Shown here piece by piece: positions 14,736-43,170 of a DNA stretch of 53,403 nt (positions are counted from its first letter, which is position 1; every line of letters starts with the position of its first letter). Location of the stretch: assembly GCA_947168725.1 (NCBI GenBank), contig CAMVNA010000004.1:74110-127512 (forward strand), written 5' to 3'. Under the pieces are notes generated by a model. That model worked only from the letters and a program-made list of their open reading frames with translations, was not told the origin of the DNA and did not search any database. This DNA is from an uncultured bacterium. GTDB lineage: Bacteria > Patescibacteriota > Gracilibacteria > Absconditabacterales > Absconditicoccaceae. A program made the position numbers and the translations under genes.

Positions 14736-15566
14736 ATGATTTGAATTTTTGATTCATGACTATGATGATTATCAGTACGAACACAGCTGGCAAAACTTAT
14801 GCCAGAGCAAAATTTTTGCTATATCGCAGATTCTGCATATTGTCCTTACTGAAGAAAGGAACCTGAAGAATTACAAGATAGATGTAGGAAACTGGCTGAT
14901 TTATTGATTAAACAATGAAACTGTGATATAATCGTGGTCGCATGTAATACTGCTACTGCTGCAGCTATTGAAGTTTTGAGATCAAAATATTCTATTCCTT
15001 TTGTATGAATGGAACCAGCAATTAAACCCGCACTTTTGCATTCTAAAACTTGAATAGTTTGAGTTCTAGCTACATATGGGACATTCAAATGAGCACTTTA
15101 TCACAGGACTTTAACAGAATTTCAGTGAGATGTAAAAGTAATAGAACAAGTCTGAGATGGATTGGTTGAACTAGTTGAAAATAACCAAACAGAAAGCAAT
15201 AAAGCAAAAGAATTACTAACAAAATATCTCACCCCAATGATAGAAGCAAATGTCGATCATCTAGTTCTTTGATGTACTCACTACCCTTTCTTAATTCCTA
15301 TGATAGAGAAAATTTTGGAAGAAAAAAAAGTCTGAAATAAAATCACTGTAATAAATCCAGCTCCATCAGTTGCACTACAAACTCAAAGGATTTTGAAAAC
15401 ATTAGAACAACACAACAAACAAAAAAAAGAAAACATATTTTACTCCACATGAAATGAACAAATTTTAGAGAATTTTGTTGTAAATATTATTTCATGATTT
15501 GAAACAAATATACAAACAACTCTAATAAAAAAATGAAACATATTTGAACATTTAACACTTCAATAA
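14736..15566 (+). CDS. murI: glutamate racemase
   Basis: Makes D-glutamate for peptidoglycan. The 276-residue protein has all hallmark residues: IFDSGLGGLSV at the N-terminus with the catalytic-site Asp-Ser, ADSAYCPYG, the first catalytic cysteine in VACNTATA (about residue 71) and the second in LGCTHYPFL (about residue 180). Both glycines of SGLGGL are TGA codons. The gene begins directly after the deaminase stop, so the two are translationally linked. A divergent paralogue without these cysteines lies at 33939-34751. Confidence 0.96.
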
Positions 15567-33579: not shown

Positions 33580-33806
33580 AATTAAATTAATTAAAAAATA
33601 AAATTAACAAACTAACATCAAACTAATATCAAGATATAAATATTTTTTAATTTATCAAGTGAATATTAAAGAAAATACGATAAAAAATTCTGACTTAAAA
33701 AAATAAAGGATTAAATCCTTTAATTAACCTTAAGAACTTCAAACCACCGATGAACCCAGTTCTTTACACCATTCTGAGAGATTTGTCTCAAAAAAGTACT
33801 CTTACT
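33580..33806. other. intergenic region with hairpins downstream of tRNA-Leu
   Basis: About 227 bases with no gene. On the minus strand it holds, after the tRNA, an AAGAACT/AGTTCTT stem with a 20-base loop (33728-33763), a GAGA-rich short stem, and an AAAGGATT/AATCCTTT inverted repeat (33704-33722). These may terminate or process the tRNA transcript. Confidence 0.4.
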
Positions 33807-33890
33807 TACCAGGGATGGGACTCGAACCCACACGACCGTGAAGTCACCAGATTTTGAGTCTAGCATGTCTACCAATTCCATCACCCTGGC
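33807..33890 (-). tRNA. tRNA-Leu (anticodon CAA)
   Basis: An 84-base class II tRNA. Acceptor GCCAGGG pairs with CCCTGGT (one G:U pair), the D-arm contains AATTGGTAGAC, the anticodon stem CTAGA/TCTGG encloses the loop CTCAAAA with anticodon CAA, a long variable arm follows, and the T-arm has GGTTCGAGTCC. It reads UUG leucine codons. The CCA end is not encoded. It is the only tRNA gene I can find in the window, and the glycine tRNA reading UGA is not here. Confidence 0.93.
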
Positions 33891-33938
33891 ATACTTGTAA
33901 GCTTCTTATAATTTTTTGCTCAACAATTTCAACTTGTT

Positions 33939-34751
33939 TTAAACCTCTTCAATATTTACTTCCACAGTTTTCCCCCTTTGCATCAGCCACATCAATTGCT
34001 TATTCCTAGTCAAAAATTTTAAAGGCTGATTTATCCAAACATTAACTCAATAATTTCAATTAGACTTTCCCACTAATTTTGTAAAACATTCCTCAACAAC
34101 AGAAAAATCATGAAATCTAATCTTGTGAAAATTAAAAAATGATTTTATCGCTCTCTGCATACAAAAATAATGATAATGCATAGGCAAAATTGTATCCACA
34201 TATGCATCCTTGAAATAACGCAAATCATTTTTCATCGTACGAATCAAATACGGATTATGTACTCATAAATTATTTATATTTGCCGTCCATGAACTAGCTG
34301 ATTTTACTCGATAAATAAACGGATGTCTAAATTTCTTAATTGATTTTTGTTCATTTGTTGGCTCATAGTTCTTTTCTTCTTTTTCGAAGAATTTTTGGAT
34401 ACTTGAAGAAGATCAAAAATCTGACAAAATTCAGATTTTACCCACTAATGAATGTTTGAATGCATATTCCTGTAAATATGTTTTAAACAATGGTAAAATT
34501 TTAAATCAAAGTTTCTTATCTGAATATTTAAAAGCTAATTCATAAACTGGATCAAGAATAATTACTTCAGCTCATTTTTTAATCAAAAACTCTCCTGCTT
34601 TCTTGATGCAATCTAAGGCATAATCCAAAGATTTTTCTCAATATGGAAAATTAGTCTGATCACAATAAATCAAATATTCATTATCGTAACGTGTCAAAAA
34701 TTGAAATAATGAAAGAGTATCTACTCCTGAACTAACTATCCCTATTTTCAT
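33939..34751 (-). CDS. glutamate-racemase-like protein without catalytic cysteines
   Basis: A 270-residue protein whose first 75 residues align by eye with MurI: MKIGIVSSGVDTLSLFQFL matches the IFDSGLGGLS start, then YCDQTNFPYGEKSLDYAL and LIKKGAEVIILDP. At the positions of the two catalytic cysteines (ACNTAT and GCTHYPFL) it has LDPVYE and PMHYHYF. The aspartate of FDSG is serine. Racemase chemistry is therefore unlikely, and it may have become a binding or regulatory protein. An active murI lies at 14736. Its start overlaps the end of the upstream gene by 10 bases, so translation is coupled. Confidence 0.6.
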
Positions 34752-35335
34752 TCTATTTCCTTCTTTAAGTAAAAATAAGAAGAAAGCACTTCTACAATAT
34801 TATCCAACTTTTTTGCTCCCAAAATATGTTTCACATTTCACATTTGTTGCTCCAATTGAGCAAGTTTCAAAGAATAATTTGATGTTCTCAATTCTGGTTT
34901 TTGATTTATTAATATATAATATTGCACTTCCAAATCTGAATAATAATTTTTCATTGGTTTCTGCATCATATTATAATACTTATCAAATAACAATCATTCA
35001 AATTTATCCATCGCCATCTTTATCTGACTTCTATAATTCACCAATTGAATAAATTCCGACTTTTTTTCTTCTAAAATCTCTTTCCGATAATACACATCAT
35101 CTCACTGGTTTATATATGAACGAATTGCCGAGATTTCACTATATTTTTTCATAGCCAATTGATACAATGTATTCAAATAAGTCTGACATTTTACAGTTCA
35201 TCACCCATTTTTAAGAAAAACTATTACATTTTCATTTTCTAAATTACAATATACTACATTCTCCAAATATCAAAAAGTCTGACTAGACAATAAAGTCATA
35301 ACTACCAACAACACAAATATCCAAAGTTTACGCAT
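34742..35335 (-). CDS. secreted helical protein, hypothetical
   Basis: A 197-residue protein with a signal peptide (MRKLWIFVLLVVMTLLSSQ, cleavage perhaps after TFG near residue 22). The mature part is rich in Tyr, Asn and Gln with long predicted helices, and has two cysteines (residues about 30 and 50). No known domain. The last codons overlap the start of the racemase-like gene, so the two are co-translated and may act in one surface process; this is inference. Confidence 0.65.
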
Positions 35336-35407
35336 TCATTTCACCTCAAATAAAAATATCCAACAACCTGATTTATAATAAATTATTTATAAAAATCAAA
35401 TAATGGA

Positions 35408-36421
35408 CTAATTCTGAAGTAACACTTTTTTCATTGTAAAAAAATAACTTTCAGGCTGAACATTACCGCTTTTTATACCATAATCTATATCTACGATACT
35501 TTTGAATAAAGACTGAATCAGATCTCTTTTTTCCTTTAGAAGTGATAATTTTTTTGTTATATTCATAATTGCTCGCGGATTTTGTTTTAGTTCACTTGCT
35601 ATTTGTTTTGAATCTGTAATTCAGTGGTCAGCATAGTCGAGTACAAATAGATAATTTCTAAGTCCCCATGCGAATGAACCATTTACTGCATTGCGGTCTA
35701 GTCAATCATCCTGTAGTCATTGAACAAATTTAATGGCTAATTTTGTATCAGTTAAAGCCAAATCTAAAAGCTGAAAAATATCCTCTTCTATCATTCCAAA
35801 GCATACTTCATCTACCACCTTTGACGTAATTTCATCATTATAATATTTCTTTCGATATCTTAATTTATCTATTTCTGATTCTAAACGGAACTGATCATTT
35901 CAAACCTTATGAATCAAAGCCTGAATAACTTTTGAATCCAGATTTAAATCTTTTGAAGTTTCTTTCACAAAATCAGGCAATTCACGCTCAGATAATGGAG
36001 CGAATGTTTTTATAAGTTTCTGAGATGAATTATCTTTATCCAATTTATCAAATCGCTTATAAAAGCGACCACGCTTATCGGGTTTATATGATACACAAAT
36101 CAAAAGGACTTCACCAGGAAGCGGATAATTCATAATATCTTCAGCTAATTTTTCTATTTCATCAGCTTTGATTGCATTAGATTTTTCTGTATCTAATGGA
36201 ACTCCATAAAGAATAACTAATTTATTAGTAACGAAAAATCCTCCACTAAAAATAGTTTGTTTTATCTGCCCATAATCTCGATTTTCACGATTAAACGAAA
36301 AAACACTGTCTATCCCATTTTTTTCAGCAAACATATCTTTCCATCTTTTAAGTTCTTTATTTAATGTATAAACATTCTCTCACGTAAAAAGATAGATTTT
36401 CTTTGGAGTATTTTCTGTCAT
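35408..36421 (-). CDS. holA: DNA polymerase III delta subunit (clamp loader)
   Basis: Opens the beta sliding clamp as part of the clamp loader. The 337-residue protein has the family's usual length and layout: IYLFTGENVYTLNKELKRWK at the N-terminus, LVILYGVPLD near residue 70, LLICVSYKPDKRGRFYKRF, the ERELPDFVKETSKDLNL segment and a C-terminal domain with RLESEIDKLRYRK, IFQLLDLALTDTK and NPRAIMNITKK. The family is divergent, and the call rests on this order and spacing. It sits upstream of the secreted helical protein gene. Confidence 0.82.
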
Positions 36422-41085: not shown

Positions 41086-43170
41086 ATGCAGCTTCAGGAA
41101 CACAAAAAAGTTTATGTACAAGATGATGAAATATTTTCATTTCAGGATACATTATTAGATAATATTTCTTTCAAAGTTTTTGTTCAGTGCTCAAGAGAAA
41201 AATTTCTTCAATATCAAAAAGACATTCTTGAAGAATTTGTCGCAGATTTCACAAATATAATCAGGACCTCAGAAGAATTAGATGTTGTAGATATAAGAGA
41301 AATTTTTGAACAAAATTTACAGCTTCTCAATACTAAACTAAAACAATTCGCAGAAAAAGTTCGTGATATTGAGCATTTTTCATTAAAATGAATCATACAG
41401 CTTGTTGTCGACGAAAAATTAATGTCTTCAATGATTGGAAACGTAAGTATGATTGTTTTGAGAGACCAAAAAACCGCATATTCTGTACCAAATAGTATAG
41501 ATACAAAAGCTAAAATTGATTTATTCTCAGATTTTATCGAATGAGAACTTGAAAGAGACGATCAAATTTTGTATGTTTGACTCAAATTTGCAGATGTAAT
41601 GGATTCTCACGACCTCAAAGAAATGGAAAAATTATTGGCTCAAGAAGAATCTTCAGAATGAATACTATCTTTTTTAGAAGAATTACTAACTACTAGAATA
41701 GAAAATTTTAACATATGATTCATTATCAGTTATTTTGTTCAATGACCATCAATTTCTTTTGCTACTACAAGAAAATCAGGACTAAAATTAACATGATGAA
41801 TGACTTGAATTAAGTGAAAATCAATTAGATATATATCAAATATATGAAATAAAGTTCATAATTCTGAACGTATTCAAAATATCAAAAAACAATTATATGA
41901 GAACAAAACATACGTTGTAGGACTTGTCCTAGTTATTCTTATGTTTGTATTCTTATATTCACTAGCTTCACAAATTTTAAATAACAGCAACCACACTGAC
42001 AAATTCCAAACATCTGAATGAACTTATATAGATATAAATTTGGAAGATTTACAAAATGATATTACAGAATTCAAAACATTAGATCCTTCATCTAACCTAA
42101 AATCTGCCAAATATACAGAAATTTCTCAAAAATTACAATTCTTAGAAGATCAATGAAAATGGTTAGAAGATGTCAAAGATTTAAAATCCCAACTTGAAGA
42201 GAATTATTATGAATGATTTCGCATTACTCAATTTAAGTCAGAAAACGAATTAAATAATATTGCCGGTAAAAACACCCAAATACTTACATTTAATGCATCT
42301 GATACAAGCAAATTATGAGATTTAGTTTCTATTTCTGCTCCTAGAAATATTATGATTGCTGGAAGTAAATGAGCAATAATCGATGCCTCAAGTGATACAA
42401 ATAGATGATATTTACAACCATATAATTTAACAAAGCCCCTCAAAAATTGTATTTCTTCATTAAATTCTAACTGAATATATTGTTATAATGATGAATGAGA
42501 AATATATATGATTTCAAAATCTTGAATTGTACCTCTAACCACAGAAGATTGAAGTTTCCATGCATGAATATGATGATTATGAACATACAGCAGTAGAAAT
42601 CTATACGTATTCAATTCAAACATCTCTAACTTATGAAATATTCTACTTTCCAGATATCAAACAAACAACGATTGAACTTATGCAAATTTCAAATGATGAT
42701 CTTCTTATTCTATAAGTGCATCTGGAGTAGATTTTGGTACTTTCTCTAGCTTTGCCATAGATGGAAATTTCTTTGGTTGGGCTAACTGAAAATTCTATCT
42801 CTTCCGAAGAGATGACGCAGCATGAACTACACTCAATTATCGTGAGATTAACGTTAAATGATCAAATCCTTTGATAGATTCTCATTCTGATAATGTAAAG
42901 ATTTTGGCATCAAAAGACTCTAGATACATATATACTTACGATAAAGAAAAACAATTATTTACGGTATATAATACCGAACCTACAAAATTAAACGATGAAA
43001 GGAAAAGAGAATATCAATTAGTTTATTTACTCAGTCTAAAGTTTGATATAGAATGAATAACTATATATGATGTAGATATATTGGGTAATTCCTGAGATAA
43101 CCCTGAGCTATATATCCTTTCAAATATGTGAGTAAATAAAATTCCTCTATATGAATACCTAAATTCTTAA
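41086..43170 (+). CDS. membrane protein with degenerate PP2C-like domain and propeller-like C-terminus
   Basis: A 694-residue protein with one hydrophobic segment (residues about 274-294). The cytoplasmic N-terminal part has the strand-helix order of PP2C phosphatases: NVSMIVLRDQKTAYSV, LERDDQILYVGLKFADVMD in place of GDxLLLCSDGLTD, and IENFNIGFIISY in place of DNITVIVV. The metal-binding aspartates are absent, so it is probably catalytically dead. The external part (residues about 295-694) has repeated strands around CYNDEGEIYMIS, NLYVFNS and YLFRRDD, like a beta-propeller. It precedes alaS by 116 bases. These domain calls are by eye. Confidence 0.5.

Follow-up and report, generated by a model that had tools for sequence, protein, structure and literature searches.

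The closest described relatives of the protein analysed here are glutamate racemases of the MurI type (TIGR00067), for which the Aquifex pyrophilus structure 1b73 serves as reference and numbering scheme. MurI belongs to the PF01177 superfamily, which also includes EcL-DER and MMP0739. In these two proteins one catalytic Cys is replaced by Thr and the other is retained (PMC8142540). MurI proteins may also act outside catalysis: those of E. coli, B. subtilis (YrpC) and two mycobacteria inhibit DNA gyrase in a manner not coupled to racemisation, by a mechanism that is not known (PMC10886550). In the open-licence literature, no paper was found that names both Absconditabacteria and glutamate racemase.

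The window, which is the whole 53,403-nt stretch of DNA analysed, carries both a bona fide murI and a second, MurI-like gene. The features of the locus are as follows.

14736..15566, (+) strand: bona fide murI encoding 276 aa in code 25; DSG, ACNTA and GCTHYP motifs all present
33806..33891, (-) strand: tRNA-Leu(CAA), downstream of the MurI-like gene
33939..34751, (-) strand: MurI-like protein without the catalytic residues, 270 aa; ATG at 34751, stop at 33939, code 25
34742..34751, (-) strand: 10-nt overlap of the UpSP TAG and the MurI-like ATG, ATGAAAATAG; translational coupling
34742..35344, (-) strand: UpSP, exported helical protein, 200 aa; GTG at 35344 or ATG at 35335; no Pfam match
35408..36421, (-) strand: holA, DNA polymerase III delta subunit (PF06144, 1.3e-7; PF21694, 5.2e-8)

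Code 25 (UGA = Gly) is familiar from SR1/Absconditabacteria and Gracilibacteria, and it is the only code that gives an open MurI-like frame, with eight in-frame TGA codons read as Gly. The murI gene contains 17 such codons, including those for the conserved Gly of DSGLGG and GCTHYP. The standard code was rejected, because TGA interrupts both frames and code 25 opens both. The complete murI reported in the earlier note is present with its motifs intact and is located about 18 kb from the MurI-like gene; at another locus (L032, 7324-8148), murI lies one gene downstream of the MurI-like gene. The tRNA-Leu(CAA) neighbour recurs at two loci of the same genus (L031 and, on the other strand, L033) and is not kept family-wide. 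The gene order at L031, from the public Patescibacteria MAG UBA3291, resembles that of the window, and this resemblance and the code together point to the lineage of the host. Elsewhere in the window, positions 41086-43170 (+) encode a 694-aa protein with no Pfam match and a single mid-protein hydrophobic stretch.

Homology to MurI and the catalytic positions

The MurI-like protein descends from glutamate racemase MurI. It shares 28% identity over 122 aa with the window MurI (BLASTP, E 6e-8). Searching the HMMs of the racemase families, a check named in the earlier note, gave a divided result: TIGR00067 covers residues 3-58 (E 2e-8) at 34 bits and does not reach its curated cut-off of 146.65, and PF01177 matches neither the window protein nor any of 23 family members. 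The likeness first noticed in the N-terminal 75 residues is real, and the homology extends further. PDB 1b73 is matched at E 7.5e-5 by the single sequence and at 5.2e-9 by a profile of 23 orthologues, with both halves aligned. Profile-profile comparison (HHalign) against nine MurI sequences is full-length, with a probability of 98.8% and an E of 1.2e-16 over 231 columns. Length and the xSG start motif also agree with MurI, and a D-x4-PYG loop and a VDTxI strand ahead of the second catalytic site are common to both proteins. Two AlphaFold runs on shallow alignments (4 or 6 sequences) gave a pLDDT of 37; by profile homology, the protein is predicted to adopt the two-domain α/β MurI fold, which it would share, via MurI, with the PF01177 superfamily.

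The catalytic positions were assigned by HMMER and HHalign, which agree. The corresponding codons are listed below with their conservation in the family.

34731..34733, (-) strand: Ser7 codon, site of the MurI catalytic Asp; T/S/G/A in 44 sequences
34548..34550, (-) strand: Pro68 codon, site of the first MurI catalytic Cys; Pro in 44/44
34539..34541, (-) strand: Glu71 codon, family-specific invariant; 44/44
34176..34178, (-) strand: His192 codon, site of the second MurI catalytic Cys; N/S/H/Q/D/T in the family

Asp7, Cys70, Cys178 and Thr179 of 1b73 correspond to Ser7, Pro68, His192 and Tyr193 of the window protein, in which His192-Tyr193-His194 is aligned to the MurI Cys-Thr-His. The Asn-Thr that follows the first Cys of MurI is replaced as well. 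The residue comparison covers positions outside the stretch around the Glu147 site of 1b73, where the alignment is poor. Across 44 orthologues, position 192 is mainly Asn, Ser or His, and position 193 is Tyr, Trp or Arg. Position 194 is mainly Gly, with His in only 6/44, and the His194 of the window genus coincides with the MurI His (His180 of 1b73, an auxiliary catalytic residue like Asp7). In contrast, 37/37 MurI controls of the same class have Asp6, Cys70, Asn71, Glu148, Cys180, Thr181 and His182 (numbered as in the window MurI). The Asp and both Cys are thus lost in 44/44 orthologues compared with 0/37 controls, and Pro68 and Glu71 are invariant in the MurI-like family, in contrast to MurI.

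The loss of both catalytic cysteines, as claimed in the earlier note, was borne out: position 68 is always Pro, position 192 is never Cys, and no cysteine is placed at a catalytic position in the 44 orthologues. The motif pairing in that note led to the right conclusion but was shifted by roughly one residue at every site; the pairing of ACNTAT with LDPVYE, for example, is better drawn as D67-P68-V69-Y70-E71 on A-C-N-T-A, which leaves the conclusion the same. A few orthologues carry a Cys at a distance of one or two residues from one site (C69 in L018; C70 in L027; C191 in L020, L023, L025, L028 and L044). None of the 44 has one close to both sites, and shifting the register by a single residue would therefore not restore the catalytic pair. 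A MAFFT alignment of six sequences placed LGVHNPYLI (162-170) on GCTHYP; this placement is unsupported by the family profiles and is also without Cys. EcL-DER and MMP0739 retain one catalytic Cys, whereas the MurI-like protein retains neither. Its sequence supports a MurI-like protein that would be incapable of cysteine-pair racemisation.

Conservation of the family and of its upstream partner

The MurI-like gene was found in 45 of the 49 genomes of the order, including all 26 high-quality ones. The exceptions are G008 and G022 (incomplete) and G031 and G032 (both members of one genus). A family wider than the order was rejected: among 192 genomes sampled across the class, matches from beyond the order were weak, reaching 3e-17 at best compared with 1e-45 to 1e-114 inside it, and all 17 that were inspected are MurI with both cysteines, carrying ACN and GCTHY or ACTHY motifs. 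No match was observed in the viral contigs searched.

In the phylogenetic tree, 41 MurI-like members form one clade (support 100/100), and two branches, 1.86 and 0.96 changes per column long, connect it to MurI. The suggestion of a duplicated local racemase fails here, since recent copying of the local murI is incompatible with a separate, ancient clade that lies about 2.8 changes per column from all sampled MurI. Because the tree is midpoint-rooted, the sequence of events is tentative. The dN/dS of the MurI-like gene is about 0.11-0.16 (against three relatives, with dS of 0.69-0.95), compared with 0.16 for MurI. This low ratio, together with the conservation, indicates a functional gene under purifying selection and rejects a decaying pseudogene.

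The orthologues are very divergent (22-55% identity). Asp31, Pro68, Glu71, Ser101, Gly104, Lys105, Gly107, Gln135, Lys174 and Asp186 are invariant or near-invariant, with Asp31, Pro68, Glu71, Gln135, Lys174 and Asp186 among them as family invariants; these residues indicate a fixed function. The ancestral cleft loops show no significant enrichment of conserved positions (30/269 circular shifts were as low), and thus neither retention of a ligand pocket nor formation of a new active site is demonstrated.

UpSP is a protein of roughly 200 aa that is helical in appearance; it carries two invariant Cys residues (C30 and C50 in A5) and what looks by eye like a signal peptide, and it has no convincing relative in Pfam or the PDB. 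The proposed translational coupling to this upstream signal-peptide gene is supported by the 10-nt overlap, and the pair is conserved in relatives. UpSP adjoins the MurI-like gene at 37 of 44 loci, and the two overlap at 31 of the 35 junctions that could be measured, by exactly 10 nt in 18 cases (typically ATGAAAATAG) and by 16 nt in nine. UpSP is present in 39 genomes, every one with the MurI-like gene, while six genomes with the MurI-like gene have no detectable UpSP (G001, G002, G017, G023, G027 and G029). The pair is thus not obligatory, and UpSP depends on the MurI-like gene, not vice versa. The usual order is holA, UpSP, MurI-like gene; holA lies beside the MurI-like family at 30 or more of the 44 loci, a lower bound because the flanks are short at some loci. 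At one locus (L039 in G027), the upstream gene with the 10-nt overlap (1537-2010, next to 2001) looks RuvC-like by eye and stands in place of UpSP. Fragments of UpSP and the MurI-like gene also occur as an inverted repeat at a contig end (G036:C5:3-196 and 206-1003), probably an assembly artefact.

MurI and D-glutamate supply in the order

Once matches that are the MurI-like gene itself or another racemase type are set aside, MurI is left in only 21 of the order's 49 genomes; among the 26 high-quality ones, MurI was seen in 12. Three PF01177 matches that are not MurI (G038:C30:9797-10450, G019:C1:99673-100323 and G021:C55:18491-19078) probably represent another type of Asp/Glu racemase. MurD-like ligases are present in 48/49 genomes, and class-IV transaminases (PF01063, which includes D-amino-acid transaminase) in 5/49. 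The MurI-like gene is present and MurI is not detectable in 25 genomes. In 19 of these (G004-G007, G009-G011, G014-G017, G024, G026, G027, G029, G036, G041, G045 and G048), MurD is strongly matched, whereas searches for MurI, for further PF01177 proteins and for PF01063 proteins found none. G002, which is complete in one contig, lacks MurI and carries a class-IV transaminase and the MurI-like gene. In draft genomes the absence of MurI or transaminase may reflect incompleteness, and the pattern persists in the high-quality genomes.

Bacteria of this order are probably host-dependent. Uptake of D-glutamate from host or prey is plausible, because Vampirococcus, which belongs to Absconditabacteria, lives by predation, has a reduced metabolism and carries peptidoglycan genes (PMC8080830).

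Possible functions of the MurI-like protein

The loss of the racemase residues, set against near-universal retention in the order, indicates that the MurI-like protein has a new job. We favour, at a probability of roughly one half, a neofunctionalised, non-racemising cytoplasmic protein on the MurI fold that belongs to the lineage-specific core and is likely linked to the envelope via UpSP. The gene would have diverged from MurI no later than the ancestor of the order; its members form one clade, and the timing is our inference. The two-cysteine racemase site has been lost. The two-domain fold may since have been used for binding a small molecule or a protein partner, and co-production with UpSP would probably serve envelope building or remodelling, a probable role suggested by the fact that the two are made together and UpSP is exported. 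The earlier note called the protein non-enzymatic; cysteine-pair racemase chemistry would indeed be excluded, but the absence of all enzyme activity goes beyond the evidence.

A new enzyme on the MurI fold, with non-cysteine chemistry based for example on Glu71, Asn/Ser192 and Lys174, is possible but doubtful. It would act on glutamate, on an intermediate of the Mur pathway or on some other carboxylate. Strictly invariant polar residues at such low orthologue identity and the purifying selection are consistent with this explanation, and the invariant charged residues Asp31, Glu71, Lys105, Lys174 and Asp186 might just as well be the signature of a new active site. Among Asp/Glu-racemase relatives, proteins in which Thr replaces one Cys stay active, in altered form (PMC8142540). 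However, the acid/base residues of the superfamily are replaced here, the first Cys by proline, and the variability at position 192 leaves no fixed replacement base at that site.

A dedicated DNA gyrase inhibitor, in which a side activity of MurI is kept without catalysis, appears improbable. The gyrase inhibition by four MurI proteins is independent of racemisation (PMC10886550), and the usual upstream neighbour, holA, is a replication gene. A possible non-catalytic role of a MurI-type protein is common to both cases, but the gyrase inhibitors are active racemases, whereas the protein described here lacks the racemase residues. Furthermore, no gyrase-binding motif or mechanism is on record that a search could use, the link with an exported protein gives no hint of gyrase, and nothing specific was found in this analysis.

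The pattern of D-glutamate genes invites two related proposals. It is a long shot that the family is a cysteine-free MurI-fold enzyme of core cell-wall metabolism, supplying or handling D-glutamate where MurI and D-amino-acid transaminase are missing; on the same long shot, the chemistry of such an enzyme would be one of which no example is known in the superfamily. That the MurI-like protein replaces MurI as the D-glutamate source where MurI is absent is quite improbable too: the 19 genomes with strong MurD and no other candidate argue for it, but the gene is kept equally in MurI-bearing genomes, where its invariant residues are identical and the cysteines are likewise absent, and probably host-dependent bacteria could take D-glutamate or muropeptides from prey.

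An inactive, prozyme-like partner or regulator of MurI, suggested by the paralogy of the two proteins and their joint presence in the window genome, is very improbable as a general role, because the MurI-like gene is kept in 25 genomes without detectable MurI, including the complete G002, and no alignment column tracks the presence of MurI (best normalised information 0.21). The co-occurrence rejects a MurI subunit, and at the level of gene content the MurI-like protein is not an obligatory subunit or regulator of MurI.

The preferred reading, a non-racemising protein with a new function, has consequences for annotation. Automatic pipelines likely overlook the gene, which has no Pfam match, or its N-terminus likely prompts the label 'glutamate racemase', by which D-glutamate synthesis would be wrongly credited to these genomes. 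The finding also raises the question of how D-glutamate is supplied for MurD in about half of the order. The MurI-like protein is more consistently kept in the order than MurI itself, and these reduced, probably host-dependent bacteria would have recruited a racemase relative for something indispensable.
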